Of a stretch of 37,069 nt of DNA, positions 7,356 to 29,293 are shown one piece after another. Below the pieces are notes generated by a model. That model did not search any database, was not told the origin of the DNA, and saw only the letters and a program-made list of their open reading frames with translations. Position numbers and translations under genes: made by a program. Source of the stretch: Deltaproteobacteria bacterium (GTDB taxonomy: Bacteria; Desulfobacterota; Desulfobacteria; Desulfobacterales; Desulfosarcinaceae); assembly GCA_021819735.1 (NCBI GenBank), contig JAKAFO010000006.1, positions 1 through 37,069 of the forward strand, given 5' to 3'. Each line of letters begins with the position of its first letter. Within the stretch, counting starts at the first letter, position 1.

Positions 7356-7726
7356 ATGGAACCGACACAGCGACGAACCGACATTCCTGTCTTGATGCTT
7401 CACAATCTGGACCCGTCCTGGGATTCGGCGGAGACGGCGGTGGCCGTGGAATCCGCGGAAAAGCTTGCAACCGAACTAAATAAAGAGGGGCACCCGGTGC
7501 TGGTCGTGCCGGTGACCGATGCGGCCCTCGGCGAGGTGCTTCAGCCATACCCGCCGGAAGATTACGTGGTCTTCAACTGGTGCGAGGAGTTGCCCGGCTG
7601 CCCCCGCAGCGATGCCACGGTGGCCGGCATATTGGAGTCGCTGAAGTTCGCTTACACCGGTTCTTCGTCCAAGGTCCTTTCCCTCAGTTGGGATAAATTG
7701 GCCGTGAAGCAGATGTTGAACAATAT
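7356..7726 (+). pseudogene. ATP-grasp (D-Ala-D-Ala ligase-like) gene, 5' fragment cut by the transposon
   Basis: About 124 codons remain before the transposon's left inverted repeat; the frame then runs about 12 codons into the transposon and stops. The segments VFNWCEELPG, a conserved GILESLKFAYTGS and LSWDKLAVKQML match the pre-ATP-grasp and early ATP-grasp part of D-Ala-D-Ala ligase-like enzymes, which join a carboxylate to an amine using ATP. The ATP-binding and catalytic C-terminal two thirds are missing here. GGGAGG precedes the ATG by two bases. A likely remnant of the last 17 codons lies at 21827-21880, directly before a C39-like protease gene, so the two were probably an operon. The substrate cannot be told from this fragment, and the gene is surely inactive. 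Confidence 0.8.
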
Positions 7727-7764
7727 GGGGCCAGCTCACGAAACGGAAAAAATAGCACGCTAAA
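7727..7764 (+). repeat. Tn3-family terminal inverted repeat, left
   Basis: 38 bp starting GGGGCCAGCTCACGAAACGG. Aligned with the reverse complement of 21789-21826 it differs only at repeat positions 5, 21, 22, 34 and 38. It contains the tnpA stop codon (7760-7762). The 38-bp length and the GGGG start are typical of Tn3-family ends. Confidence 0.94.
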
Positions 7765-10729
7765 CTTCCCCGATCATTCTTAGCGGCCGGAACTTGCCCT
7801 GCTCGATCTGTTTGCTTTGCTGCCAAATATAATCGCCGGTCAGGTTAATATGCTCCCAGCCTAGCGGCGACAGGTGTGGTAGCAGTTTTTCGTCAATTTC
7901 CTTTCCGGAATTCCGCAATGCCTGGACTGCTCGTTCTATGTAGACCGTATTCCACAACACAATGGCGGCCAACACCAGGTTAAGGCCGCTCGCGCGATAG
8001 CGCTGGTTCTCAAAGCTCCGGTCTCGTATTTCCCCAAGCCGGTTCAGAAACACGGCGCGAGCTAGCGCATTCTTCGCCTCCCCCTTGTTTAATTCGATCT
8101 GCACACGCCGGCGCAGCTCAACGTTTTGCATCCAATCGAGTGCGAACAACGTGCGTTCAATGCGGCCGATTTCGCGCAAAGCTACAGCTAGACCGTTCTG
8201 CCGAGGATAACTGCCCAGCTTTCGCAACATCAGCGAGGCGGTGACCGTACCATGTCTGATCGACGCTGCCAGACGCAGGATTTCGTCCCAATTTGCACGA
8301 ATACGCTTAACGTTGACATTGCCGCCGATCAGTTTGGCAAGTGTCGGATACTGCTTGTCGTCCCCGTGAAGATACAGGCGCTTATCGGCCAGGTCGCGGA
8401 TGCGCGGCGCGAAACTGAAGCCGAGCAGGTGCATAAGCGCGAATACATGGTCGGTGAAACCGGCCGTATCGGTGTAGTGTTCCTCGATGCGCAAGTCAGA
8501 CTCGTGGTATAGCAGACCATCCAGAACGTGAGTGGCGTCGCGTACCGTGGCGTTGATGACCTTGATGTGAAAGGGCGTGTACTGGTCGGAAATGTGGGTG
8601 TAAAATTGCACGCCGGGTTTCTGCCCGTATTTCAGATTGACCTGGCCAGCGAACCGCCCCAGGCCGCCAGCCTTGAAATTCTGACCGTCGGACGATGACG
8701 TGGTCCCGTCGCCCCACCAGGAAGCAAACGGCTGATGAAACTGCGCATTGACTATTTCGGCCAAACTGGCCGAGTAAGTTTCGTCCCGGATATGCCACGC
8801 TTGCAACCAGGCCAGCTTGGTGTAGGTCATGCCGGGGCAGGACTCCGCCATCTTCCTCAGCCCAAGGTTGATGGCATCAGCAAGAACGGTGGTTAATAGC
8901 AGGTGTTTGTCTTTGGCCGATTCTCCGCTCTTAAGGTGCTTGAAGTGCCGGGCAAAGTCAGTCCAGCTGTTAACCTCCAGCAGCAGTTCGGTGATTTTCA
9001 GGTGCGGCAATAGGCTGTAGACTTGATGCATCAGTGCTTCGGCCTCGTGCGGAACGGCGTTATCAAGTGGCGTGATCTTGAGGTGTCCCCGGCTGGTGAT
9101 AGAGGCATCGGGCAACTCGTTTGCAGCAGCCATCTTCTCTACAGCTGCCAATTTCCGTTCCAGCACTGCCAGCCTTGCTACAAGATAGCGGTCGCAGTCC
9201 GTTTCGATGGCGAGACCGAGTTCCTGGTGATTGCGCTGCGCTCTGAAGCGCGGAGGTGGCAGTAGGTATTCCTCGAAATCCTTGAACTGGCGCGAGCCCT
9301 GCACCCATATGTCGCCCGAGCGCAGCGAGTTCTTCAGTTCGGATAATACGCATAGCTCATAAAAGCGATGATCCAAGCCATCGGGCGTCCGCACCAGGCT
9401 TTCCCATCGCTTTCGTACAAACGAAGTGGGCGCATCGTTCGGTACTTTACGCGCCTGGCGGTCATTCATGCCCTTAATTACTTCAATGCTGGCCAATAGT
9501 TCGCGGGATGACGGCGCGGCCTTCATGATTAATGAGTCCAGGAAGGTTGGTGTGTAGCGTCGCAGCTGGTTGAAACTGTCTACGATAAGGGCCAGGTAGT
9601 CGAAATTTTCAGGCTGGGCCAGTTTTTCTGCCTCTTTGATGCTCTCACGAAACACGTTCCACGGGATAATGGCCTCAATGGCTTCGAACGGATCGTTGCC
9701 CAACTCCTTGGCGTCCAAAAGGGCGCGGCCGATGCGCAAGTACATGCGCACATTGTCGTTGATCTCCTTGCCGGACTGCTGGAAGTGGTCGGCGTGTTTG
9801 CGTTTGGCTTTGCTGAACAACGCACCCATGAGTCGGTCACGCAGGTCGATGATTTCATCGATCAGCGTGGCGCGAATTTCGAGCAGCACCGCGACCAGGG
9901 TGGCATAGCGTCGGACATGTTCCAGATCGCGCAGGTGTTGGGCGGTCATCTGCACACCTTCGCGAGCCAATTTCAGAACGCGGTTCTGGTGGACGGCATG
10001 TTCGAGCCCCTCCGGCAATGATAGCTGGTGAATAGCTTTCAGCCGCTTCAGATGTGCCAGGATATGCTTGGGGCTTGGCGGGCCGGGCGGCTGGCGAAGC
10101 CAAATAAGACCGCTTCCCTTGGTGCCTTCGCGTAGCGTCAGCAGTTCGTCGAGAGCACGCCTGTGATGATCGGACAGCGATTCGGTCAGTGCCTTGTAGA
10201 CCTGGCGCGTGCCGCGCGTGAGCGCTTCACTGCATAAACGTTCGATGACATCTAATACCGGCAGGATAATGCGCTGCCGCCGCAACATCTCAACCAGCTT
10301 TTCGGCCAGTACGATACCTCGATCTGTTTGCTGGGCCAACTCGGTGAGCTGATGGAGGAACCGCCGGTAATCGGCAGTAGAGAATAGCGTCAGATTTAGC
10401 CAAGCCTGCAATTGCACCAGGTGCTCACGCCTCGTTTGCGCCCGTTGAGCATACCATGGCCAAACATCCGGCGCGATATGCAACTGCCGTCCTACCAAGG
10501 CAAGCAATGCCGGCGGCGGCTCCGCGTCGGTCGGAAGAGCGAAACCGGGATAGCGAAGGTAGCATAGTTGTATTGCGAAGCCAAAGCGGCTGTGGTTGCC
10601 GCGGCGCTGGCGAATTACCGATAGATCGGGTTCCGAAAACGTATAATGCCGAATGAGTTCGTCGTCAGAGACCGGGAAGGTGAGCAGTAAAGCACGCTCG
10701 GCGGGCGTTAAGAAACTGCGACGCGGCAT
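7760..10729 (-). CDS. tnpA: Tn3-family DDE transposase
   Basis: This 989-residue protein is full length for a Tn3-family transposase, which cuts and joins the 38-bp ends in replicative transposition. The N-terminal segment [13 protein letters not shown] and the motif [14 protein letters not shown] are characteristic. The predicted catalytic triad is D681 (SSDGQ), D754 (HYTDTAG) and E884 ([14 protein letters not shown]). The spacing fits the family, and a [19 protein letters not shown] segment follows. No frameshift or stop interrupts the gene. It starts at an ATG 6 bases after the tnpR stop, so the two genes are probably co-transcribed. The stop codon lies inside the left inverted repeat. Confidence 0.97.
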
Positions 10730-10735
10730 GATCCG

Positions 10736-11293
10736 TCAATCCGTTCGCAGGTATTGGTATAGGGTCTCACGGCTGATGCAGAGTTCGCGGGCAAGCTCGG
10801 CTTTTTTTTCGCCGGCAGCAACCCGCTGCCGCAGCTCGGACACTTGGGTGAGTGAGAGCGACTTCTTCCGGCCTCGGTAAGCGCCACGCTGTTTGGCGAG
10901 CGCGATGCCTTCTCGCTGCCGCTCATGGATCAAGGCTCGCTCGAACTCCGCGAATGCTCCCATCACGGGCAGCATTAGGTTCGCCATCGGCGAATCCTCG
11001 CCAGTGAAAGTCAAGTTTTCCTTAACGAACTCAATGCGTACACCGAGCTTGGTCAGTTTATGCACCAATCGGCGCAGGTCATCAAGGTTGCGCGCCAGTC
11101 GATCCATGCTGTGCACCACCACGGTGTCACCCTCGCGCACGAAGGACAGCAGCGCGTCGAGTTGCGGCCGTTTGGCGTCCTTGCCCGATGCCTTATCGGT
11201 GAACACCTTGTTGATCTCGATATGTTCCAGTTGTCGTTCCGGGTTCTGGTCGAAGCTGCTGACCCGGACATAGCCGATGCGTTGACCGTGCAA
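10736..11293 (-). CDS. tnpR: Serine resolvase of the Tn3-family transposon
   Basis: TnpR resolves the cointegrate made by replicative transposition by recombining two res sites. The 185-residue protein begins with RIGYVRVSSFDQN, where Ser12 of the RVS motif is the predicted nucleophile. It continues with VVHSMDRLARNLDDL and GAFAEFERALIHERQREGI, typical of the small resolvase/invertase group. A C-terminal helix-turn-helix (about residues 145-185) ends in LCISRETLYQYLRTD. The start is a TTG with AGGAG six bases upstream. It lies directly ahead of tnpA and just after the res-like region. Confidence 0.94.
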   Translation of the reverse strand: MHGQRIGYVRVSSFDQNPERQLEHIEINKVFTDKASGKDAKRPQLDALLSFVREGDTVVVHSMDRLARNLDDLRRLVHKLTKLGVRIEFVKENLTFTGEDSPMANLMLPVMGAFAEFERALIHERQREGIALAKQRGAYRGRKKSLSLTQVSELRQRVAAGEKKAELARELCISRETLYQYLRTD

Positions 11294-11450
11294 TATGTTC
11301 TCCTAACTATGACAGGTGTCAGGAAGAGATCTATGAGCTTTGACAGAATATGTCAATAAATCGATTAATGAACTCTATTCTGACGCTTTGGAGCCCTATT
11401 CCTGACGTCCGGCTAAGGTATACTTTACCCGACACCTTTTATGGCAATAC
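11294..11450. other. Probable res site and tnpR promoter region
   Basis: The sequence upstream of tnpR contains two palindromes, GACAGGTGTC (11311-11320) and TGACAGAATATGTCA (11341-11355). More TGAC half-sites follow near 11390 and 11402. Repeated TGTCA/TGACA half-sites upstream of tnpR fit a resolvase res site with several dimer-binding subsites, as in other Tn3-family elements. Subsite boundaries and the crossover point cannot be fixed by eye. Confidence 0.6.
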
Positions 11451-11565
11451 GGCGCTTCCATGTTTCGTGAGCCAACCTTATCCGCTAACTCTCCCCTAAT
11501 TGTCAGTCGCCATATTCCAAGACACGCGAATAACCGCGCAACAAACTTACAGAGGAGATCTTATT

Positions 11566-11901
11566 ATGAAACGCAAATTATTCTATCTTGTCGCGTTAGT
11601 CGTGCTTTCCGCATCCGCCACGGGTAGTGCCTTCGCGGCGGACGTCATGGAAAACGATGCTCTGGCTATCCAAACAGCAAAGGTTGGCCTATCACAAGCG
11701 GTCATTACCGCCGAGCAACACGTCGCCGGCAGGGCCTCCAGAGCTGAATTTGAACGGCACAACGGTCAATGGGTCTTTGACGTAGAGGTGGTGAGCGGCA
11801 CGAAGGTCATGGACGTAAAGGTCGACCCTGAAAGTGGCAAGGTACTCACTGCCACGGAGGATAAAGTCGATCACGACGACAAACACGATAAAGAGGATTA
11901 A
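11566..11901 (+). CDS. Exported PepSY-domain protein with acidic tail
   Basis: A 111-residue protein with a signal peptide (MKRKLFYLVALVVL, probable cleavage after SAFA). The mature part resembles a PepSY domain: an amphipathic helix (IQTAKVGLSQAVITAEQHV) followed by the beta strands WVFDVEVVSG and VMDVKVDPESGKVL. Such domains are small periplasmic or membrane-associated modules often encoded beside OmpR-type two-component systems. The last 13 residues are Asp/His/Lys-rich (DKVDHDDKHDKED), which might bind a cation; this is inference. The start at 11566 has GAGGAG eight bases upstream. A longer in-frame start at 11500 would bury the signal peptide. First gene of the plus-strand cargo arm. Confidence 0.82.
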   Translation: MKRKLFYLVALVVLSASATGSAFAADVMENDALAIQTAKVGLSQAVITAEQHVAGRASRAEFERHNGQWVFDVEVVSGTKVMDVKVDPESGKVLTATEDKVDHDDKHDKED

Positions 11902-11922
11902 TCGTGGCACAACTGGTGTGGA

Positions 11923-11952
11923 GCCGGGGCGCGCATGTCGCCCCGGCGTTTT
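11923..11952 (+). terminator. Rho-independent terminator or attenuator after the PepSY gene
   Basis: GCCGGGGCG (11923-11931) and CGCCCCGGC (11939-11947) form a perfect 9-bp stem around a 7-base loop, followed by GTTTT. It lies between the PepSY gene and the COG4705-like gene. It may end most PepSY transcripts and lower expression of the downstream genes. Confidence 0.7.
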
Positions 11953-12000
11953 CCACGAATTGGATCGATATCGGTCTAGACAGTGCCCGGGAGGTTTCCT

Positions 12001-12759
12001 ATGAATAACAAGACCGCACAAACTCTAAGCAAGGTTCCAGAGGTTACATTCATTTTCTGGATAATAAAAATTGCGGCCACCACGCTGGGTGAAACCGGCG
12101 GCGATTCGGTGTCCATGTCAATGAACCTAGGATATCTCATCGGAACGATCATTTTCACGGCGATATTCCTGGCTGCCGTGGTCGCCCAGATTAAAGCAAA
12201 GCACTTCTATCCGTTGCTCTACTGGTCGACTATCATTGCAACGACAACGGTTGGAACGACGCTTGCTGATTTTGCAGACCGCTCGCTCGGAATTGGTTAT
12301 ACAGGAGGATCATCGTTGCTGTTTGTTTTGTTGATGGCTTCTCTGGTTATCTGGTATTGGTCTCTTGGAACGGTATCGGCCACTACCATCAGGTCCCCAA
12401 AAGCCGAGATGTTCTATTGGATAACGATCATGTTTTCCCAAACCTTGGGTACCGCGCTTGGCGATTGGACTGCAGATACGGCTGGCCTTGGCTATGAGGG
12501 CGGTGCGATGGTATTTAGTGCCCTGCTGGTAGTCGTTGTTGCGGCATATTACTGGACAAACATTTCTCGCACCTTGCTATTCTGGGCCGCATTTATCCTC
12601 ACGCGCCCCCTTGGGGCTGTGGTGGGCGACTTTCTCGACAAACCCTTGCGCGCAGGTGGGCTTGCATTAAGCCGCTATTCCGCTTCGGCAGCCCTGCTCG
12701 GATTTATACTGACCTGCATATTACTCTTTCAACAAAGGGCGGCAAAACAACCCCATTGA
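12001..12759 (+). CDS. Polytopic membrane protein, COG4705-like, with internal repeats
   Basis: A 252-residue hydrophobic protein with about eight predicted membrane segments. Function is unknown. I recognise it as like the COG4705 'membrane-anchored protein' family. It has four internal repeats, each with a Thr-x-Gly...Gly-Glu/Asp core: TLGETGGDS (about residues 23-31), TVGTTLADFADRSLGIGY, TLGTALGDWTADTAGLGY and PLGAVVGDFLDKPL. The acidic residues and glycines at the membrane face recur in each unit, suggesting duplication and possibly an ion or small-solute path; that role is inference. ATG at 12001 has GGGAGG six bases upstream. It lies between a PepSY gene and a two-component pair, a neighbourhood I associate with this family. 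Confidence 0.72.
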   Translation: MNNKTAQTLSKVPEVTFIFWIIKIAATTLGETGGDSVSMSMNLGYLIGTIIFTAIFLAAVVAQIKAKHFYPLLYWSTIIATTTVGTTLADFADRSLGIGYTGGSSLLFVLLMASLVIWYWSLGTVSATTIRSPKAEMFYWITIMFSQTLGTALGDWTADTAGLGYEGGAMVFSALLVVVVAAYYWTNISRTLLFWAAFILTRPLGAVVGDFLDKPLRAGGLALSRYSASAALLGFILTCILLFQQRAAKQPH

Positions 12760-12948
12760 CGCAATAATGGATCTATTTCGAAGCCACTTCAAAACCTTCA
12801 ATTAAGTTCAAGGCTAAGCGGGGCAAGGAGGACAACCGTAGGAATCATTAATCCGTCTGTTACTGTCAACTTATCGGATTATTTTTACTGGTTCGACCAG
12901 AAAGGGCTGGGTTCAAAGAGAGCTTATCCGGTATACCGGGGGATATCG

Positions 12949-13608
12949 ATGCGAATTTTGTTGGTCGAAGATGATGACATGATCGGTAAGGCCGTGTCCC
13001 TTGCATTAAAGGATGCTGCTTATGCCGTGGATTGGGTAAAAGATGGCGATACTGCCCATAGCACGCTCAAATACAGCGAGCACCAAGCCGTGCTGCTTGA
13101 CCTGGGTCTCCCCAAACGCGATGGGTTGGATGTGCTGCGACGCCTGCGCCAAGCTGGGAGCAAGATTCCAGTCATTGTCATAACGGCTCGTGATGGTGTG
13201 GAAGATCGAATTCATGGACTTGATCTAGGTGCGGACGATTATCTCGTCAAGCCCTTCGATGTCCACGAATTGCTCGCTCGGTTGCGAGCGGTGGTTCGCC
13301 GTCAAGGGGGGCAAGCGGCTCCCATTCTCACGAACGGAAGAATAAGCCTCGATCAATCTACCCATAGAGCGACCTGCGCCGACGCTGTGGCAGACTTAAG
13401 CGCACGTGAGTACGCATTACTACATGCTCTGTTGCTTCATCCAGGCAGGATTCTCAGCCGATCTGAACTGGAAGAGCGCATATATGGTTGGAATGAAGAG
13501 GTAGAAAGCAATGCGGTCGATTTTTTAATCCACAGTGTGCGAAAAAAACTCTGCGCTGAGGCCATCAAGAACGTGCGCGGCGCGGGCTGGCTTGTGGAGA
13601 AATTATAA
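12949..13608 (+). CDS. OmpR/PhoB-type response regulator, first transposon-borne system
   Basis: A 219-residue regulator. The N-terminal receiver has the acidic pocket VEDDD and the predicted phospho-acceptor D51 in LLDLGLPKRDG, plus the conserved Lys in VKPFD. The C-terminal half is a winged helix (DLSAREYALLHALLLHPGRILSR ... NAVDFLIHSVRKKL). Overall it resembles the QseB/PmrA group. It shares one base with the next gene's ATG (TAATG), so it is translationally coupled to its kinase. The likely targets are the cargo genes themselves, but I found no clear repeated operator to prove it. Confidence 0.92.
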   Translation: MRILLVEDDDMIGKAVSLALKDAAYAVDWVKDGDTAHSTLKYSEHQAVLLDLGLPKRDGLDVLRRLRQAGSKIPVIVITARDGVEDRIHGLDLGADDYLVKPFDVHELLARLRAVVRRQGGQAAPILTNGRISLDQSTHRATCADAVADLSAREYALLHALLLHPGRILSRSELEERIYGWNEEVESNAVDFLIHSVRKKLCAEAIKNVRGAGWLVEKL

Positions 13609-14921
13609 TGAAAAGGTCAATGCAATGGCGACTTACGCTTATGTTAGGCGGTGCTATCCTGGTTTCAGGACTCGTTTCGGCTTTGGTTTCGTTTATTCTA
13701 TCATATGAAGAAGCAAAGGAATTCCAGGATGACACGTTGCGACAGATCGCTCTGCTGACTGCATGGAGCAAAGATGTCCCGACCGAAAGCAAAGAGCTTA
13801 ATCAATTTCATGCTAAAATCGCGCTGGACGATACCGAGTCACGAATTAGCGTAATTCATTTGCCGGACGATCCTCGACCCAAGTGGCTTGTGGAGAATTT
13901 ATCACCTGGACTGCACACACTCGAAACAGGTGGGGATCGATTGAGGATATTCCTGCAGAAAGACTCCTCTGGCAAAACATTGATGGTGACACAACCAACC
14001 GATATTCGTGACGAAATAGCGATTAATAGCGCCCTGCGCACTTTTGCGCCATTGTTGTTATTCCTGCCTATAATGGCGTGGCTGGTTATGTGGATTATTC
14101 GTAGTGAACTTGTACCCATCAAAAAGCTCGCCGGTCATTTGGACGCACAGCCGACGGACCAGCCGCGCCCGCTTGCCCATGAGGGTGTGCCAGACGAAAT
14201 AGTCCCCTTCGTTTATGCGATAAATCGCCTGCTGGAGCGCGTCACTAATCTCATGGGGCAGCAACGGCGTTTCATTGCCGATGCCGCGCACGAACTCAGG
14301 AGCCCTCTTACCGCATTGTCGATCCAGGTACAGAACCTGAAACAGGCTGGATCACTGGAGCGCATGAACGAGCGAATCTTGCCCCTTCAGGATGGCATAG
14401 AGCGAGCGCGAAAGCTAACCGAACAACTCTTGAACCTTGCTAGAATTCAGACGGCAACTACGGAAACCAAGATCGTCGATGTCTCGGCGATGTCACGCCA
14501 ACTGATTGCGGAATACCTTCCCATGGCAGAGGCCAAAGGCATTGACCTTGGACTCGATGAAGCGGCACCGCTCACTCTTTTAGGGGCGCCGGAAAACCTT
14601 CGGCTGATACTCAAGAACGCTCTGGAGAACGCTCTCCAATATGCCCCCAGCGGCGGTGAGGTCACCGTCAGGTTGTTATGCCCAGTTGGTGACAGATCGG
14701 GTTTTGAGATACTCGATAATGGCCCCGGTATTCCAGTATCCGAGCATAAACGCGTGTTTGATCCTTTTTTTCGGCTTCCAGGTACATCCGGCGAGGGCAG
14801 CGGGCTCGGACTCGCAATCGCAATGGAAGCCGCGGCCTGCCAAGGTGGAAGCGTAAGCCTACTCAACCGGCCGGAAGGCCCTGGATTGATATTCCGCTAT
14901 CTTCAGAATTGCAGTACATGA
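13608..14921 (+). CDS. Membrane sensor histidine kinase, partner of the upstream regulator
   Basis: A 437-residue kinase with a first membrane segment near residues 9-30, a periplasmic stretch of about 110 residues and a second membrane segment near 143-162. The phospho-acceptor is H228 in ADAAHELRSPLTAL. The ATP-binding domain has NALENALQYAPSGG, DNGPGIP and GEGSGLGLA. The layout matches the QseC/PmrB group. The periplasmic part has no motif I can assign to a ligand. The gene overlaps its regulator by one base and converges with the small exported-protein gene, leaving 54 bp between stops. Confidence 0.92.
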   Translation: MKRSMQWRLTLMLGGAILVSGLVSALVSFILSYEEAKEFQDDTLRQIALLTAWSKDVPTESKELNQFHAKIALDDTESRISVIHLPDDPRPKWLVENLSPGLHTLETGGDRLRIFLQKDSSGKTLMVTQPTDIRDEIAINSALRTFAPLLLFLPIMAWLVMWIIRSELVPIKKLAGHLDAQPTDQPRPLAHEGVPDEIVPFVYAINRLLERVTNLMGQQRRFIADAAHELRSPLTALSIQVQNLKQAGSLERMNERILPLQDGIERARKLTEQLLNLARIQTATTETKIVDVSAMSRQLIAEYLPMAEAKGIDLGLDEAAPLTLLGAPENLRLILKNALENALQYAPSGGEVTVRLLCPVGDRSGFEILDNGPGIPVSEHKRVFDPFFRLPGTSGEGSGLGLAIAMEAAACQGGSVSLLNRPEGPGLIFRYLQNCST

Positions 14922-14975
14922 TTCATGCACCAAGATGGTATGGGCGGAGCAGGTGGCAGATGGCGGCCGACGAAA

Positions 14976-15374
14976 TCAGAAGCTACAATGGAAGACAAGG
15001 CCATAATAGGTGCTTCCCGCATGATCTTGCTCAATTATGGGCATCAGAATGAGCTTGTCCGTTATTAAGCTGCCGATCGTAGCGCCGATCGTATGAAAAA
15101 CCACGTCTTCTAACATGCTTGAAAATGCTTCTCCGTGCTGAGCTCTATCTATACCCTCGCCTATTATACCGCAACCCGTGCTGAAGCTAAAACCGATCAA
15201 GGCCCTGTGTTCAGGCCAATATTCGTTCGCACCGGCAGTGGCTAATCCGGCTATGGCTGCTCCTCCTGCGACATGGGCCGATTCGCCAGGCACATTTATT
15301 CCGGTTTGAGCCAAAGCCTGGGTAGCAAACAACAGTGCTATACAAAACCATAATAAATACTTCAGTCTCTTCAC
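14976..15374 (-). CDS. Small exported protein, weakly YfiM/DUF2279-like
   Basis: A 132-residue protein with an N-terminal signal (KYLLWFCIALLFATQALAQ) and two further hydrophobic stretches. The pattern SAHVAGGAAIAG ... GIIGEGIDRAQHGEAFSSMLEDVVFHTIGA resembles YfiM/DUF2279-like proteins: an early His, a Gly-rich helix, then Glu/Asp, Ser and Asp before a last Gly-rich helix. The family's function is not well defined and the match is only pattern-level. I place the start at a GTG (15372-15374) because GGAGG lies four bases upstream. An in-frame TTG at 15392 precedes that Shine-Dalgarno. It is the last gene of the minus-strand cargo arm, 75 bp after the transferase gene. Confidence 0.6.
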   Translation of the reverse strand: MKRLKYLLWFCIALLFATQALAQTGINVPGESAHVAGGAAIAGLATAGANEYWPEHRALIGFSFSTGCGIIGEGIDRAQHGEAFSSMLEDVVFHTIGATIGSLITDKLILMPIIEQDHAGSTYYGLVFHCSF

Positions 15375-15449
15375 ACGGCCTCCAAATTTCAAATTCCTAT
15401 AGCGCAGCGTTTCATTTTCTCGCGGCGAAGCCTCGCTTTAACTCTCATT

Positions 15450-17480
15450 CTATTTTGCGGACTGCGCTTTTACGGCCAGTGCGCGACCCTGCTGCATATA
15501 AGCAGCAACCTCACCGACCGACAAAGCATTGTACAGTCCATGTTTATAAAGGTAGCTGGCGACTTGGTAATAACTTATGGTTTCTTCTTCCATCTCCTTA
15601 TCAAGGGGAGCCTGTTTCATCGAACGGCTCGCGAAGCCATAGTGGTATGCGACGTTTTGGCGCACCGGCTTTAAGATGACGAATTCGCCCTCTTCGATGT
15701 GCCCCAGCTTCTGGTAATTGCCGATGATGGCGTGCCCCTCTTGGGGGGCGATGGTACGCACATCATGACCAAAGAAACGGCTCGGATAGCTCCAGTTCAG
15801 AAGTCCGAGCAAGGTGGGGGCGTAATCCGTCTGACTGGCAATTGTGGTAATATGACCGGTCGGCAACTGTCCGCCCGGCGCAAAGATGATGAGCGGTATG
15901 TGATAGTTATCGACGGGCAGTTCGGTCTTGCCCGCGCTGGAAGCGCAATGGTCGGCGACGATGACAAAGACCGTATGCTTAAACCAAGGTTTGGCGCTCG
16001 CATCTTTCAAGAATTGGCCGATGGCGTAGTCTGTATATTTTACGCCGCCGCGACGTTCCGAGATTTTAGAAGGCAGATCGATGCGCCCCTCGGGAAAAGT
16101 GAAGGGCCGGTGATTGGAGGTCGTCATCACAAAAAAGTGGAAGGGTTTGCCCTCCGCATGGACGGCATCGGCTTCGCGCATCGTCCAGCGATACAGATCT
16201 TCGTCGCATGCCCCCCATGCATTCGCGAAGGTAACATCCGACTGGTTTACGGCATTGCGGTCGATGATGCGATAGCCGTTGTTTCCGAAGAAGTAGTTCA
16301 TATTGTCGAAATATCCGTACCCGCCATAGATAAATGCGGTATCATACCCCTTGAGTCTGAATAACGAGCCGAGGGTGAACAATCCCTCATTATGGGGGCG
16401 TTTCACCAGGGAACGGCCCGGCGTGGGCGGCAGGGAAAGGGAAAGCGCTTCCATCCCGCGATCCGTGCGGGTTCCGGTTGCGTAGAAATTGTCGAATACC
16501 AGGCTCTTGGGTTCAAGGGCCGATAAATTCGGCGTCAGGTTGGCATAGGGGCCTGTACTATCCAGGAATTCGGCACTCAGGCTTTCCACCGTGATCTGGA
16601 TCACATTCAACCTGAGTTCCGGGCCTTCCTTGGCATAGAACCGCAACGTGTCCTTCTCTTCAGCCCGCAATAACACCGATCCGTCCTCTACCAGTTCCGA
16701 GCGCATGATCTGAAAGGACTTCTCGATGGGAAGGGTCGGGAAGAACTGGGTAAAATCGAGTTCGTTGTCTTTGAAGGCCGCGACTAAGGACCACAAGCCA
16801 TTCTTGCCAAGTTCTCGGTTGTAATTGTTGGCGAAGTCGGGCAGCCAGTTTTGATTGACGATCAAGCCCACCGCGACGGCCATGATACATGCGATGAACC
16901 CAAAGCGATAACGCTCCCGGGCGGGTGCGACCGAGTTCGCGGCCCACGCGGCCAACAGCCCCGTGCGCCAGATGACTACCTGAAATATCAGGGATAGTGC
17001 GGCGATTGCGCTCAGGATCAAGGGCATGGGGTAGGATTCGTAAATGTTATCGATGACTTCATGGGTGTAGACCAGATAGTCCACGGCGATGAAATTGAAT
17101 CGCACCCCGAATTCATCCCAGAAGACCCACTCGGCGACGATGCTGAACAACATCATGTAAAGAAAAACGAACAGGATCGCCTGGATCAGTAAACGGCCCC
17201 ACAGGCGTTCGAAAAAATGTTTCGGCAATAGCGTCAGGAGCAGGATAAAGGGGATCGCGACCCAGGCCGCCGTGCCGAGGTCATAAATAAAGCCCCAGCC
17301 AAAGGCGGCGGCAAGGCTTGCGTCCCATGAAACATTCTGGGCCGCCTTGATCAGCAACGCGATTCGGGCAACGAATTGGAACCCGAGAAAAAGGGCCAGG
17401 AAAAGAACGATGCCGCCATTGCGCCTTTGGATGCAGGCAGTAAATAGCGCAGAGAGTTTATTGAATGGATTTGGTTTCAT
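15450..17480 (-). CDS. LTA synthase/MdoB-family sulfatase-fold membrane transferase
   Basis: A 676-residue protein with about five N-terminal membrane segments (to residue ~215) and a large extracytoplasmic alkaline-phosphatase-fold domain. Metal-site and catalytic signatures are visible: VIQITVESLSAEF (acidic metal ligand), GTRTDRGMEAL (predicted Thr nucleophile, about T339), FIYGGYGYFDNMNYFF, and VFVIVADHCAS (Asp-His metal ligands). Family members move phosphoglycerol or phosphoethanolamine head groups from phospholipids onto envelope polymers such as lipoteichoic acid, periplasmic glucans or lipid A. In a Gram-negative host, beside an ArnT-like gene and a PmrAB-like pair, an envelope-charge role is plausible, but the acceptor is unknown. 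A 228-bp gap separates it from the upstream kinase gene. Confidence 0.85.
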   Translation of the reverse strand: MKPNPFNKLSALFTACIQRRNGGIVLFLALFLGFQFVARIALLIKAAQNVSWDASLAAAFGWGFIYDLGTAAWVAIPFILLLTLLPKHFFERLWGRLLIQAILFVFLYMMLFSIVAEWVFWDEFGVRFNFIAVDYLVYTHEVIDNIYESYPMPLILSAIAALSLIFQVVIWRTGLLAAWAANSVAPARERYRFGFIACIMAVAVGLIVNQNWLPDFANNYNRELGKNGLWSLVAAFKDNELDFTQFFPTLPIEKSFQIMRSELVEDGSVLLRAEEKDTLRFYAKEGPELRLNVIQITVESLSAEFLDSTGPYANLTPNLSALEPKSLVFDNFYATGTRTDRGMEALSLSLPPTPGRSLVKRPHNEGLFTLGSLFRLKGYDTAFIYGGYGYFDNMNYFFGNNGYRIIDRNAVNQSDVTFANAWGACDEDLYRWTMREADAVHAEGKPFHFFVMTTSNHRPFTFPEGRIDLPSKISERRGGVKYTDYAIGQFLKDASAKPWFKHTVFVIVADHCASSAGKTELPVDNYHIPLIIFAPGGQLPTGHITTIASQTDYAPTLLGLLNWSYPSRFFGHDVRTIAPQEGHAIIGNYQKLGHIEEGEFVILKPVRQNVAYHYGFASRSMKQAPLDKEMEEETISYYQVASYLYKHGLYNALSVGEVAAYMQQGRALAVKAQSAK

Positions 17481-17708
17481 AAGAAAATAGACCTTTCATT
17501 TTTAGAAACAAATAGGAACTCGATTTTTAGGAAGCGTCACCCTGAGGCCACCCCGAATCAATGGGGCTTTCAAGGCCCCGGCAAACTAGAACCGTAATCC
17601 CTGCTGCTAAAAGCGCCGTGGGAGCCTCACAGAAAGGAGGGCCTTGTTGCCGTGACAAGTGTCTATTGGCAGGCGTTCTTAGCGCTGGGCGGATAGGAAT
17701 AGGCCGGG

Positions 17709-19097
17709 CTATCCGCTGGGCAAGCTGATATTCATCTGGGTCCATTGGCCGGGGATGCTTTCAGCATCGATTTTGCCCCCATGCAACTCTATTATTCGCC
17801 GGGTGATCGTTAAACCCAAACCAACTCCGCCAAACAGCATCGAGCGGGACTTTTCGAGTCGGTAAAACTGGTCGAATATGTTTTCCAAATCAGCTTCGGG
17901 AATTCCGGGGCCTGTATTGCCAATGGATAGAAACACGTGCGTAGAGGTTGCGTGCCCAGATATTTTTACCATGCCATCCTTCTTGTTGTATTTGATGGCG
18001 TTGTCGACCAGGTTGACGAGCACTCTTCTGAATTTATCGATATCCGCGAAAACTTTCACTTCGGATGAAATCTCATTGTGAACCACCAATTGCTTGGCGG
18101 CAAAGGCCTCCGCAAAATCATCCAAGACTGGCAATAGCAGTTCGTTTAAAGAGATCTCCATGCACTCGATTGGAGTAGTGGGGTGTTCTAATATGGAAAG
18201 ATCCAGCAGATCGTTTATCAGGCGACTCATGCGGTGCAGCGTTTCCGAGAGCCCAAGCAGCGATGCACGGTGCTCTTCAGGCAAATCCTCACTTTGTAAG
18301 TACTCCTCGGTTTTAAGTCGCAAAAGAGCTACCGGGCTTTTGAGTTCATGGGAGGCGTCGGCCACGAACTGCTTCTGCTTCTCAAACGAATATTGCAAAC
18401 GGTCGAACATTGAATTGAGCGTCTCAGCAAGACGGTAAAGCTCGTCGGGGGTGCGACCCAACGGGATGCGCCGGCTGAGGGTTTTTTCATTGATAACGCT
18501 TGCAAGGCGATTGATGTCACTGATCGGTTTGAGAATTCGGCCCGATAACCAGAATCCCAGAACCGTCAGGACGGTTGCCGATAAGACGAAGCCCACTGCA
18601 ATAACGATACTGAGCTCGATGATTTCTTCGACCGGGTTTTCAATGGGGATACCTACCAAAAGAGTTAACGCTGCACCATTTATATGGATAGCGGTCGACA
18701 TGGCGCGAATCGCCAGGGACTCATTAACCCCTAAATCCGGATAGCGATGTCCTGTGGGGATGCGGCTTAAAACGGTGAATGGCTTCGGTGAACCCGGCAA
18801 GGCAATATCGATATCATTTGCAACAGCGGATTTCCATACGCTTTTTTTCTCGACATCATAAAGACTTAGCCAGCATCGCCTCAAACTCGGTAACGATTCC
18901 ACCGCACGAACAAACCCCTGAACGCTGTCCGCCGATACTCCAATTTGCTCAAAATCAACTGCTTTGCCTCTTAACTCAGTGTCGATCAATTCATAGTATT
19001 CTTCTCCGACGGCTATGAACACAATAGCCGAAAAGATCAAGCTGCCACACAGCCCGGCCCCAACAATCCAAACGGCTATTTTATTGCGGATCTTCAA
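17709..19097 (-). CDS. Membrane sensor histidine kinase, second transposon-borne system
   Basis: A 462-residue kinase with a membrane segment near residues 8-30, a periplasmic region to about 160, a second membrane segment (IVIAVGFVLSATVLTVLGFWL), and a HAMP linker (GRILKPISDINRLASVI). The phospho-acceptor is H250 in VADASHELKSPVALL. The ATP-binding part has NLVDNAIKYNKKDG, NTGPGIP and GGVGLGLTI. It starts at a TTG that overlaps the regulator's stop as TTGA, so it is translationally coupled. The 5'-to-3' order (glycosyltransferase, regulator, kinase, transferase) suggests control of the neighbouring envelope genes. Confidence 0.92.
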   Translation of the reverse strand: MKIRNKIAVWIVGAGLCGSLIFSAIVFIAVGEEYYELIDTELRGKAVDFEQIGVSADSVQGFVRAVESLPSLRRCWLSLYDVEKKSVWKSAVANDIDIALPGSPKPFTVLSRIPTGHRYPDLGVNESLAIRAMSTAIHINGAALTLLVGIPIENPVEEIIELSIVIAVGFVLSATVLTVLGFWLSGRILKPISDINRLASVINEKTLSRRIPLGRTPDELYRLAETLNSMFDRLQYSFEKQKQFVADASHELKSPVALLRLKTEEYLQSEDLPEEHRASLLGLSETLHRMSRLINDLLDLSILEHPTTPIECMEISLNELLLPVLDDFAEAFAAKQLVVHNEISSEVKVFADIDKFRRVLVNLVDNAIKYNKKDGMVKISGHATSTHVFLSIGNTGPGIPEADLENIFDQFYRLEKSRSMLFGGVGLGLTITRRIIELHGGKIDAESIPGQWTQMNISLPSG

Positions 19098-19777
19098 TCA
19101 GTCTCTTCCCTTACAATAAAGCCAACCCCACGAACCGTTTCAATTAAATCCATGCAACCGGCATCCTTTAACTTCTGGCGTAGGTTCTTGATGTGAACGT
19201 CAATGAAATTGGACATTGTAAAGGGATCGTAAGAATCGCCCCATACGTGTTCCGCCAGGTTGAATCGCGTGATAAGACGATTCTTGTTGTACAAGAGGAA
19301 TTCGATCATAGAGAATTCTTTTGGCGTCAATGACAATTTTTCAGCGCCGAATCGAATTTCACGGGTGATCGTATTTAGAGTAAGTCCCCGGGCTGAAAGA
19401 TTTGCTTCGGTCTGCCCGCTTGAACGTCTGAGCAAGGACCGGATTCGTGCCACTAACTCTTCAAACGCAAAGGGCTTTGGCAAATAGTCATCTGCACCGG
19501 CGTCCAACCCTTTGATTCTGTCATCGACAGACCTCCTGGCCGTTAGCATGATAACCGGCGTCTTGATATCGGCCTTTCGTATCTCTTTTAATACCGCCAG
19601 GCCATCTCTTTTCGGCAGCATGATATCGAGCACGATGATGTCATACAAAATTTCGAAAAGCTTGACCAAAGCCTCTTCGCCATCTGCGGCGGTGTCGACG
19701 ACATAGCGTTGGCGAACAAGCGACAATTCCAGTTGCTCGCGAAGCCCTGCATCGTCATCTACCAACAGAATACGCAT
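19094..19777 (-). CDS. OmpR/PhoB-type response regulator, second transposon-borne system
   Basis: A 227-residue regulator. The receiver has VDDDA, predicted acceptor D51 in IIVLDIMLPKRDG, and the conserved Lys in YLPKPFAFEELVARI. The winged-helix output domain has LSLTPKEFSMIEFLLYN ... SNFIDVHIKNLRQKL. AAGGAAG precedes the ATG. The gap to the upstream glycosyltransferase gene (19778-19868) holds an inverted repeat, GGTA-N11-TACC, at 19820-19838. It also holds a hairpin, AAGGCC/GGCCTT, at 19845-19862. The regulator therefore may have its own promoter. Confidence 0.92.
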   Translation of the reverse strand: MRILLVDDDAGLREQLELSLVRQRYVVDTAADGEEALVKLFEILYDIIVLDIMLPKRDGLAVLKEIRKADIKTPVIMLTARRSVDDRIKGLDAGADDYLPKPFAFEELVARIRSLLRRSSGQTEANLSARGLTLNTITREIRFGAEKLSLTPKEFSMIEFLLYNKNRLITRFNLAEHVWGDSYDPFTMSNFIDVHIKNLRQKLKDAGCMDLIETVRGVGFIVREETD

Positions 19778-19819
19778 TAATCTTCCTTCTTGGTCTAAAT
19801 TCGAATTCGTTATAGGAAA

Positions 19820-19862
19820 GGTAACTTACATACATACCTCAATCAAGGCCGTAATCGGCCTT
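19820..19862 (-). promoter_or_regulatory. Possible operator dyad and hairpin upstream of the second regulator
   Basis: GGTAACTTACATACATACC (19820-19838) is an inverted repeat, GGTA-N11-TACC, lying 43 bases upstream of the regulator's start. AAGGCC-GTAATC-GGCCTT (19845-19862) is a 6-bp hairpin just past the glycosyltransferase stop and lacks a T-run. On the minus strand, TATAAC near 19810-19815 could be a -10 element. Autoregulation is plausible but unproven. Confidence 0.3.
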
Positions 19863-19868
19863 AGGAAG

Positions 19869-21443
19869 CTACCTTGGTTCAGCGCCCCCAGTGGCTTGTG
19901 AGCCAAACAACTTCAATTTTTCGGATTGAATCTTGGAATCTTCGCTGGCCACATGCGCTTTGGCTCGCTTCCGGAACAAACTGAATTCATCATAGGTTCC
20001 AATGCATTCTATGTTCTTGTGCATTTCAAGAAATCCAAGAATGTGGCACTGTTTGATAGCATAAAAATCCTGCCCGCTGTCGTCGAAATAGGCCTTAAGC
20101 TGCGATGCGTCGGTTACCTGGATGGCATGGCCAGATGAATAGAATTCAGCTGAATAGGGACGATCATACAGATAGATTAGTCTGCTCGACGGGCTCGTGC
20201 GGATGTGCTGGTAGCATGATACCAGGTCCTTTTGGCTGTTCCGGCCCCGGATAGGGGTAAAAGACCACACGAGGATTAAGAGCCCCACAATCAGCGGGGT
20301 CGAAAACCCAGTGCAAGCTATTCTATACAAGGGCCACTTGAAATTAGTAAGCGTTTCTTCAGCATTTGATTGAACGTTCTCAGGCCACCATTGCGCCATC
20401 AACAGGGCGAAGGCGGGGAGTCCGGTCAGCGCATAGGTCCAGAGTATGTTTCTCGCAAAAGTAAAAAAGAGCATTGGCGCGACCGCCCAGAGGATTAAAT
20501 AAGCGGACCATTCATCGGTTGTATGAAAGGATGGTCTAATGCTACGCCGCTTTGCAACATTAACGACCCATGATCCGAAAAATAGCATGGACCAGGGAAA
20601 TGCCGCGATGATCCAGAACAACCAGATCATGCCACGCGGTTGAACATGTGCGCTCCCGTAGAGGTCCCCTGCCCAACCCGGCTGTGCATAACGCCGCCAA
20701 TGCTCGCCAATCAAAAAATAGTCGAGAAAGCCCGGCGTGCGGGCCTCTGCTGTCATATACCAGGGCAGGGTGAGGGCTGCCGTTAGAAGCAGGCCTCCAA
20801 TCCATGGTATCCGCGACAATACTACGCGCCAACGTTTTCGCCAGACAACCCAGAGACCGATGGGAAGAAATGTGAGCACGATACACACCGGCCCCTTGGA
20901 CAACAAACCGATGGCCTGCCCTACAAAGAAAAGATAACCCCACAGGGTGGCTTGTTTGCCTTTACCATTCAACGCAAGCCAGAAGGCTGTCATGGACAAT
21001 GTGGTGCCCAAAGCCAAGGCGGCGTCGGTCATGACCGCGCCACTGTTGATGAAAAACAGTACCGATGAGATAAGTATCACGCTCGCCACCAGCGCATGGT
21101 CGCGATCACGTCGTTTTATTGCCAACTTGTACGTCAGCCAAACCACCAAGAGCGATAGGAAAAAGGGCGATAGACGCGCGGCAAATTCGTTGGTGCCGAA
21201 TAGTGACATGGTCATCGCGGTCAACCAGATCGATAGCGGAGGTTTGGCCCAGAACTTGGCGCCATGGAGTTGGGGAGTGACCCAGTCACCTGAAGCGACC
21301 ATCTCCCTGGCCACCTCCGCATAGCGTGCTTCAGTATTGTCGGTGAGCGGATAGGCGCCCAAGGTCGCCAGTCGAATTGTAGCGGATATTATCAGTATCG
21401 CTATTAGAACCGTGCGACGGTTTGGATGGTTGATTTGATTCAC
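19869..21443 (-). CDS. ArnT/GT39-like membrane glycosyltransferase
   Basis: A 524-residue polytopic protein with about ten membrane segments. The N-terminal region YPLTDNTEARYAEVAREM, then SGDWVTPQLHGAKFWAKPPL, matches the PMT/ArnT (GT39/GT83) pattern. In that pattern an acidic residue in the first periplasmic loop is catalytic and the KPPL segment is conserved. Family members use polyprenyl-phosphate sugars as donors. ArnT itself puts 4-amino-4-deoxy-arabinose on lipid A, lowering its negative charge. No arnABC-type donor genes are present in the window, so the donor sugar is unknown and a host-made sugar must be assumed. The start is GTG at 21443 with GGAG about 11 bases upstream. It is first in the minus-strand cargo arm. 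Confidence 0.84.
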   Translation of the reverse strand: MNQINHPNRRTVLIAILIISATIRLATLGAYPLTDNTEARYAEVAREMVASGDWVTPQLHGAKFWAKPPLSIWLTAMTMSLFGTNEFAARLSPFFLSLLVVWLTYKLAIKRRDRDHALVASVILISSVLFFINSGAVMTDAALALGTTLSMTAFWLALNGKGKQATLWGYLFFVGQAIGLLSKGPVCIVLTFLPIGLWVVWRKRWRVVLSRIPWIGGLLLTAALTLPWYMTAEARTPGFLDYFLIGEHWRRYAQPGWAGDLYGSAHVQPRGMIWLFWIIAAFPWSMLFFGSWVVNVAKRRSIRPSFHTTDEWSAYLILWAVAPMLFFTFARNILWTYALTGLPAFALLMAQWWPENVQSNAEETLTNFKWPLYRIACTGFSTPLIVGLLILVWSFTPIRGRNSQKDLVSCYQHIRTSPSSRLIYLYDRPYSAEFYSSGHAIQVTDASQLKAYFDDSGQDFYAIKQCHILGFLEMHKNIECIGTYDEFSLFRKRAKAHVASEDSKIQSEKLKLFGSQATGGAEPR

Positions 21444-21788: not shown

Positions 21789-21826
21789 CTTAACGTGCTA
21801 TTTTACCCGTTTCGTGAGCTGACCCC
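21789..21826 (-). repeat. Tn3-family terminal inverted repeat, right
   Basis: Reading inward on the minus strand it starts GGGGTCAGCTCACGAAACGG and ends TTAAG. It matches the left end (7727-7764) at 33 of 38 positions. The GGGGTC...TTAAG form is close to the Tn3-family consensus, so this end looks functional. Host sequence resumes at 21827. Confidence 0.94.
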
Positions 21827-21880
21827 TTGCTGGTCAACCTTGCGGCCCAGCGGCATCCGATTTTTTCGCAAGGCGCCTGA
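21827..21880 (+). pseudogene. Probable last 17 codons of the interrupted ATP-grasp gene
   Basis: Directly after the right inverted repeat, one frame reads LLVNLAAQRHPIFSQGA and stops at TGA (21878-21880), 20 bases before the next gene's ATG. A short C-terminal helix ending in an Ala-Gln-Arg-like run would suit the end of a D-Ala-D-Ala ligase-like protein. The tail is too short for a firm call. The argument is positional: the matching 5' fragment ends exactly at the left repeat (7726). Confidence 0.4.

Positions 21881-22689: not shown

Positions 22690-23106
<417 letters not shown>

Positions 23107-28942: not shown

Positions 28943-29293
<351 letters not shown>

Follow-up and report, generated by a model that had tools for sequence, protein, structure and literature searches.

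In a stretch of deltaproteobacterial DNA of 37,069 nucleotides (hereafter, the window), four consecutive genes occupy one arm of a Tn3-family transposon. The question raised by this locus is whether the four genes form a unit and, if they do, what the unit serves.

Composition of the four-gene module

Analyses of open reading frames and Pfam domains placed a PepSY gene, a DUF347/COG4705 gene, a response regulator gene and a kinase gene on the plus strand at exactly 11566–14921, in agreement with the initial annotation. The first gene (11566–11901) encodes an exported PepSY protein (Pfam PepSY, 40.6 bits against a cut-off of 24), which is 63% identical over 76 amino acids to MmfA of the mmf cluster of Tn6048. 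Its tail, as aligned, is rich in Asp and His; the PepSY alignment has the residues HDK in 7 of its 13 rows, two of these seven being identical. The second gene (12001–12759) encodes an MmfC2-like membrane protein (79% identity), in which PF03988 matched in four stretches (209.4 bits; Pfam cut-off, 28.2) and whose structural model (pLDDT 90.9) has eight helices. The four-repeat membrane protein proposed earlier is thus borne out.

Each of the four DUF347 repeats has an invariant Trp-x9-Gly-x4-Asp motif, with one Asp at the same place per repeat (L054, which contains a stop codon, was left out of alignment A1). Alignment and model together show that the invariant acids, four in number, fall in helices 1, 3, 5 and 7, and that a Lys and an Arg in helices 1 and 7 are likewise invariant. 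In fold searches, the model had no clear match to any family or to a solved metal transporter; the best Foldseek E-value against solved structures was 0.31, and the best Z was 6.4, which falls short of the noise level given for helical models.

The remaining genes encode an OmpR-type response regulator (12949–13608; Response_reg and Trans_reg_C; 62% identity to MmfR) and a sensor histidine kinase (13608–14921; HisKA and HATPase_c; 39% identity to MmfS), which keeps the phospho-acceptor His and the ATP-binding motifs. The initial labelling of this pair as QseBC/PmrAB-like holds at the superfamily level only, as all four curated models scored below their equivalog cut-offs (PmrA, 216 of 330 bits; QseB, 206 of 345; QseC, 211 of 475; PmrB, 143 of 314).

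The module is preceded by a leader (11484–11565, plus strand) resembling those of two other loci, L050 and L009. Between the PepSY and DUF347 genes lies a hairpin with an 8-bp stem and a 9-nt loop, followed by a T run (11923–11952, plus strand; hairpin window energy, −21.7), a structure shared, with paired changes, by L050 and L009. This hairpin was found by alignment, its loop being outside the range of our terminator scan; the promoter and terminator scans did not exceed shuffled sequences (4 against a mean of 3.7, and 3 against 4.0, respectively).

We consider it probable that the four genes constitute a compact two-component module for envelope and metal stress. The MmfS-type kinase, located in the inner membrane, would most likely detect metal or cationic stress at the envelope and drive the MmfR-type regulator, which would turn the operon on. 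PepSY, exported and bearing an Asp/His-rich tail, could buffer or report the stress in the periplasm, and DUF347, with its eight helices in four repeats, would be the membrane effector. The hairpin may allow PepSY to be made in excess over the products of the remaining genes. With no more than 39% identity to MmfS, the kinase may respond to a different signal.

The transposon and its converging arm

The carrier has a Tn3 transposase, a resolvase and paired terminal repeats, as expected of the Tn3 family. Its 38-bp terminal inverted repeats (7727–7764, plus strand; 21789–21826, minus strand) are identical at 33 of 38 positions. The minus strand encodes tnpA (7760–10729; NCBIfam transpos_Tn3, 1195.8 bits, cut-off 500) and the serine resolvase gene tnpR (10736–11293; Pfam Resolvase and HTH_7); a presumed res region, at approximately 11294–11430 with no strand assigned, is placed by its position and by alignment with a Delftia element. 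A Tn21-type end had 0 matches in the window, the element having its own related ends. The transposon is inserted in a ddl-like gene, and the host genome has a single full copy of it. Its ends are flanked by AATAT and TTGCT and not by a 5-bp target duplication, for which the loss of about 600 bp of target beside the right end offers an explanation, since it would remove one copy.

The arms converge, the module being on the plus strand and the genes from 14976 to 21443 on the minus strand. The latter encode a small inter-arm protein of no family (14976–15392), an LTA-synthase-like membrane enzyme (15450–17480; Pfam Sulfatase), a second sensor kinase (17709–19097), a second response regulator (19094–19777) and a GT39 glycosyltransferase (19869–21443; Pfam PMT and PMT_2). 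The best models for the second kinase and regulator were the heavy-metal kinase and heavy-metal regulator models, both below cut-off. The initial annotation was therefore right that the converging arms carry two complete, different two-component systems, the second at 17709–19777 on the minus strand. Membership of the other arm in an Arn system was not found: the GT39 protein reached 168 bits with the ArnT model (cut-off, 567), and ArnA was not detected in the host genome (G000, approximately 95% complete) at an E-value of 1e-150.

The genes accompanying the module, for a second two-component system, an LTA-synthase-like enzyme and a GT39 protein, lead us to regard the whole cargo as most likely an envelope-remodelling, metal-stress package. 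It is somewhat unlikely that the arms are unrelated passengers, picked up by the transposon on separate occasions and without a common function. The two response regulators (RR1 and RR2) do fall to different best models, the arms lie on opposite strands, and mmf genes occur in many places without the other arm. Against this, G+C content is alike in both arms (0.516 and 0.512), and homologues of the other arm are found beside or near DUF347 in genomes G445 and G483, the latter having homologues from both arms within 20 kb. If the package reading is true, a regulated response to envelope stress would be able to pass between distant bacteria on transposons.

Genes that adjoin DUF347 in other genomes

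DUF347 is a family without known activity, and its neighbours were surveyed in other genomes. Among the DUF347 matches listed, PepSY lay within 3 kb in 11 of 46 genomes, and 14 of the 40 PepSY matches over the cut-off lay this close (for genome G141 the distance was taken from locus L059; the genome of L028 is not in these counts). Of 36 loci, 13 had a regulator or kinase within 3 kb and 4 had one at 6–9 kb. DUF347 is thus recurrently linked to PepSY and two-component genes, contrary to the outcome that would have refuted the initial annotation. The two-component linkage is not obligatory, since a complete kinase-regulator pair was lacking within 3 kb at 34 of 50 DUF347 loci. Three near-duplicates (L017, L042 and L044) and loci with short flanks were left out of the 50-locus count and the 36-locus near/far counts.

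DUF347 occurs in 23 of 200 genomes of the class of locus L060. When this class was pooled with that of the window (120 near ORFs from 36 loci, a descriptive count of near ORFs only), cytosine/purine-type permeases were the commonest neighbours (8), followed by kinases (6), regulators (4), BacA (3), PepSY (2) and VTT/DedA (2). The permease neighbour probably reflects shared ancestry.

The initial annotation had suggested ion handling, which is possible for DUF347, but its neighbours elsewhere suggest a role in the envelope and with undecaprenyl phosphate no less strongly. On one reading, DUF347 is a divalent-metal exporter and the module a plain metal-resistance unit: the kinase would sense Pb or Zn, PepSY would bind the metal in the periplasm and DUF347 would carry it through the inner membrane. 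The arn and undecaprenyl neighbours elsewhere would then be bystanders of general stress islands. We hold this to be possible, though short of probable. The mmf cluster of Tn6048 is upregulated by Pb and Zn and is described as of unknown function (PMC12029693), and Frankia UppP-DUF347 operons are lead-induced (PMC4531530). The four invariant acids in alternate helices would suit an exporter, and of five plasmid regions viewed, three have DUF347 near DmeF, CzcA-type RND and GDT1-family genes or within a metal-rich stretch. On the other hand, of the 25 families listed for the 133 near ORFs, no metal-transporter family is prominent; the far set, by contrast, includes a CusB/HlyD-type family (3 of 133; the control comprised the nearest 133 of 160 far ORFs). 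The lack of a clear match between the DUF347 model and a solved metal transporter also speaks against an exporter, which would in addition leave the BacA, PAP2 and DedA neighbours to be explained.

These neighbours, and in one locus an LTA-synthase-like gene, are a new observation for DUF347. BacA overlaps or adjoins DUF347 in three genomes of one genus, with DedA nearby (L172–L174, L182 and L183), and in L181 DUF347 is adjoined by an LTA-synthase-like gene 75% identical to that of the window. Of 36 loci, 7 had BacA, PAP2 or DedA within 3 kb and none had one of them at 6–9 kb, a comparison biased toward near hits by queries that were themselves taken from DUF347 neighbours. By Pfam, PAP2 was found in 5 of 133 near ORFs against at most 1 of 133 far ones (p 0.06 to 0.21), and the near/far counts are individually not significant. 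That DUF347 itself acts on undecaprenyl phosphate or a lipid-linked envelope precursor, so that the module sustains envelope modification under stress, would agree with these neighbours, with the arn-like genes following the Desulfobulbus module described below and with the invariant Lys and Arg. We nevertheless judge it unlikely: apart from the bias in the queries, DedA, the known carrier transporter, is already present in many of these islands, and the window module has no BacA, PAP2 or DedA gene. Quite improbable is the broader proposal that DUF347 is, beside DedA and DUF368, a third kind of membrane protein handling the undecaprenyl-phosphate carrier or a lipid-linked envelope precursor, and that mmf modules, including that of the window transposon, are mobile switches sustaining envelope modification under metal or cationic-peptide stress.

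Among the DUF347 matches listed, ArnA lay within 10 kb in 4 of the 10 genomes whose ArnA scored above the cut-off, where about 0.04 would be expected (computed on 9 genomes, and still about 0.04 for 10, one of which was counted together with its neighbours in the frame; G142 was left out of the tally). In G107, G113, G131, G132 and G445, ArnA is on a different contig from the listed DUF347 matches, at a distance that is large or indeterminate. Counted by locus, arn/GT39 genes were no commoner near DUF347 than far from it (3 of 36 loci at 0–3 kb and 3 of 36 at 6–9 kb). A DUF347-arn link was not found in the open-licence papers searched. An mmf-type module that precedes an arn-like operon and the recurrent position of DUF347 beside undecaprenyl-phosphate genes together replace a vague "metal" note by two competing, separable hypotheses.

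Relatives of the module and the mmf cluster of Tn6048

The envelope and metal stress module that we favour has relatives outside this transposon. A deltaproteobacterial metagenome-assembled genome (L050) carries all four genes in an identical order (70, 81, 84 and 74% identity) with a similar leader and hairpin, and its 10.4-kb contig has no match to the tnpA or tnpR of the window. L009 has the four genes and PAP2. In Desulfobulbus rhabdoformis (L028), PepSY, DUF347, regulator and kinase genes follow in this order (47, 75, 62 and 40% identity), with DedA upstream and arnB-C-A-D-T-EF-like genes downstream, all on one strand; tnpA and tnpR are again unmatched in this 20.7-kb stretch. An mmf-type module directly before an arn-like operon, for lipid A aminoarabinose, is new here. 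The proposal that PepSY and DUF347 form one unit with the two-component pair is supported. The idea of an unknown assembly was not borne out, since the module is a shortened mmf cluster and its four genes recur in other genomes.

The other arm likewise has a counterpart. A Marinobacter plasmid (NZ_AP028063) has LTA synthase, kinase, regulator and GT39 genes, the same kinds in the same sequence; it differs in having the LTA synthase gene on the opposite strand and added GT2 and GtrA genes, and neither DUF347 nor PepSY is among the annotations of the 15-kb stretch. The Frankia operons, as far as the available text of PMC4531530 describes them, resemble the module in having DUF347 in a metal-induced operon and differ from it in the presence of UppP; neither PepSY nor a two-component pair is mentioned in that text.

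The closest known system is the mmf cluster of Tn6048 from Cupriavidus metallidurans, as on pAKD16. In a published comparison (PMC12029693), growth with Cd, Co and Zn did not differ between a strain with mmf and one without it. None of the 11 transposon proteins compared is a counterpart of mmfB (UppP), mmfC1, mmfD or eamA, and the DUF347 protein is nearer to mmfC2 than to mmfC1 (79 against 36% identity). The missing mmfB counts against our preferred explanation, as do the unchanged growth with metals, the low identity of the kinase to MmfS, the undetected ArnA of the host genome, the DUF347 loci without a nearby complete pair and the near/far counts given above. The carriers also differ, Tn6048 being a tniABQR element with 25-bp ends; Tn402/Tn5053-type 25-bp ends had 0 matches in the window at up to 3 mismatches, against 2 exact matches in pAKD16. 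An intact Tn6048 inserted in res was considered and rejected, because the Tn6048-type end is absent from the window. The hairpin after PepSY is a further difference of the window module. The blastp matches to mmfA, mmfC2, mmfR and mmfS, at the identities given above, stand in that order and on one strand, and the four-gene arm is, as judged from its sequence, a shortened mmf cluster.

The transposon and its insertion site

The four genes annotated initially at 11566-14921 were all confirmed. Those at 11566-11901 and 12001-12759 encode an exported PepSY protein and a DUF347/COG4705 protein of four repeats, respectively; genes for an OmpR-type response regulator and a sensor kinase follow at 12949-13608 and 13608-14921. 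Together they form one arm of a 14.1-kb Tn3-family transposon, which ends in 38-bp inverted repeats (7727-7764 and 21789-21826; 33 of 38 positions identical) and has tnpA and tnpR on the minus strand (7760-11293). The other arm, on the minus strand, encodes a small exported-looking protein of 138 amino acids, an enzyme resembling LTA synthases, a regulator and kinase (RR2 and HK2) and a GT39 glycosyltransferase; the best models for RR2 and HK2, heavy-metal subfamilies, scored below the cut-off. The small protein, whose gene lies where the two arms meet (14976-15392), matched no family over the cut-off and no plasmid. The two arms have a G+C content of 0.516 and 0.512, as compared with 0.59 in both flanks. 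The host genome contains one copy of the transposon, 80% of which was covered by none of the 1657 plasmid records with a match; the best of these records, a Desulfosarcina plasmid, matched through its tnpA-tnpR part, with 75.8% identity over 26% of the transposon.

The insertion truncates a D-Ala-D-Ala-ligase-like (ddl-like) gene, found at 7356-7763 and from 21827 onward. In G006, a genome of the same genus, this gene is intact and the flanking DNA has the same order and orientation; the match with the window extends to 7722 on the left side and resumes at 21827 on the right side. About 600 bp of the ddl-like gene, beside the right end, are present in G006 but absent from the window. No target duplication was found in the flanks beside the transposon ends, which is explained by an insertion that lost adjacent target DNA. 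The left-side segment 3859-7199 had no counterpart at the corresponding place in G006. The right flank contains two P-II-like genes (22705-23106, with a Pfam basis, and 28955-29293, without one; 73% identical DNA over 231 nt), between which lie a glnD-like gene and an ammonium transporter gene.

DUF347 and its neighbours

The initial annotation had placed the PepSY and COG4705 genes ahead of a two-component pair, and the linkage of DUF347 to the other genes proved to be recurrent, though not obligatory. In Pfam and NCBIfam searches, which (like the ArnA counts below) are free of neighbour-query bias, 11 of 46 genomes had PepSY within 3 kb of DUF347, accounting for 14 of the 40 PepSY matches over the cut-off (rough expectation, 0.09). 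Among 133 near and 133 far ORFs, Pfam identified 8 versus 3 regulators, 7 versus 3 kinases, 5 versus at most 1 PAP2 and 4 versus at most 1 PepSY, none of them significant alone. Local queries, several of which were drawn from DUF347 neighbours and therefore favour near hits, found a regulator or kinase within 3 kb at 13 of 36 loci versus 4 at 6-9 kb (p = 0.025), PepSY at 6 versus 0, BacA/PAP2/DedA at 7 versus 0, and arn or GT39 genes at 3 versus 3; among 50 loci flanked by at least 3 kb in either direction, these queries found regulator plus kinase at 16, PepSY at 8 and a BacA/PAP2/DedA gene at 13. Among 120 near ORFs pooled from loci L145-L180 (classes of the Paenibacillus locus L060 and of the window), the commonest neighbours were cytosine/purine-type permeases (8), a context that did not appear in the families listed for the proteobacterial loci.

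The DUF347 protein was modelled confidently (mean pLDDT 90.9, pTM 0.88) with eight helices. Every repeat in 47 sequences has an invariant Trp, a Gly at +10 and an Asp 5 residues after the Gly (W20-G30-D35, W75-G85-D90, W140-G150-D155 and W195-G205-D210); K23, E31, E136 and R202 are also invariant. Structure searches gave no clear match among solved structures (best Foldseek E 0.31, best Z 6.4), a result as compatible with a known fold as with a new one, and PF03988 had no match in 14 control genomes. An acid recurring in every repeat is suggestive of a cation site, and the four Asp, carried by helices 1, 3, 5 and 7 of the predicted model, would form a single site. The basic residues, taken with the neighbour genes, may indicate a lipid-phosphate substrate.

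Association with envelope and arn genes

DUF347 is rare in the class of the window genome (10 of 291 genomes, host included). ArnA occurs in 36 of these 291 genomes and in 5 of the 10 with DUF347 (p = 0.0035, relatedness ignored). ArnA exceeded the cut-off in 10 of 54 DUF347 genomes, lying within 10 kb of DUF347 in four (G139, G410, G463 and G483; two of one genus) versus about 0.04 expected, and at 28 kb in G380. The arn names rest on NCBIfam searches of G483, where ArnA alone passed its cut-off (1060 versus 777 bits), the others being best models below theirs: ArnB (585/631), ArnC (485/529), ArnD (381/382), ArnT (482/567) and ArnF (76/99). Its BacA protein scored 259/262 and its DedA protein, with UptA (undecaprenyl-phosphate transporter) as best model, only 119/250.

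In Desulfobulbus rhabdoformis (L028), DedA-like, PepSY, DUF347, mmfR-like and mmfS-like genes are followed on one strand by arn-like genes matching the ArnB, ArnC, ArnA, ArnD, ArnT and ArnE/F of G483 (protein comparison; Pfam for three). BacA directly adjoins DUF347 in G410 and G483, with DedA close by, and a single 20-kb stretch of G483 has homologues of LTA synthase, RR2, HK2, DUF347, PepSY and GT39; the comparisons of these three genomes share the near-hit bias of the local queries. In G445, DUF347 (71% identity) adjoins an LTA-synthase-like gene that shares 75% identity with its counterpart in the other arm of the window transposon. In Pseudomonas aeruginosa, lipid A aminoarabinosylation and the resulting colistin resistance are reported to require a DedA transporter (PMC12893004).

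ArnA was not found in the host genome, and the GT39 enzyme of the window scored far below the ArnT cut-off (168 versus 567 bits); thus, the other arm does not in itself constitute an aminoarabinose system. Judged from gene neighbourhoods, the two arms may serve a joint function. The best-supported role of the module is to respond to envelope stress caused by metals or cations. Both metals and cationic peptides elicit responses of PmrAB-type systems.

Relation to the mmf cluster

The window proteins share 63, 79, 62 and 39% identity with MmfA, MmfC2, MmfR and MmfS, in the same order, of the zinc- and lead-induced mmf cluster of Tn6048 from Cupriavidus metallidurans, compared as on pAKD16. Counterparts of its mmfB (PAP2 phosphatase), mmfC1, mmfD and EamA genes were not found. 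The four genes also occur, in the order of the window, in a deltaproteobacterial MAG (L050; 70, 81, 84 and 74% identity) and, with an additional PAP2 gene, in a betaproteobacterial MAG (L009; 76, 82, 81 and 67%). Both resemble the window in the leader 5′ of PepSY and in the hairpin 3′ of it, the paired positions of which covary. The mmf-bearing plasmid pHB44 is reported to have increased bacitracin resistance, which led the authors to mmfB; pBS64, which also bears mmf, had no clear effect (PMC4914505).

In Herbaspirillum sp. RV1423 (L047), a Tn3-family element with paired ends (10724-20209) is apparently inserted at the end of mmfC2, and a response regulator gene follows about 9.5 kb further along. 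On the Massilia putida plasmid NZ_CP019036 (L083; 6971-9734), the gene directly preceding a DedA/PAP2 fusion gene encodes a kinase with 41% identity to the one in the window, and RND efflux genes lie nearby.

Tn6048-type ends were not found in the window. On the Delftia plasmid NZ_CP065697 (L063), a Tn6048-like end lies at about 7400-7700, inside the corresponding stretch beside tnpR of a related Tn3-family element, as expected for a transposon inserting into res sites; elements of the Tn402/Tn5053 type are named "res hunters" (PMC7765201). The lack of Tn6048-type ends in the window and the Delftia end next to tnpR indicate more than one encounter between mmf genes and Tn3-family elements. The arm is a compact, mobile and putatively two-component-controlled version of the mmf module.
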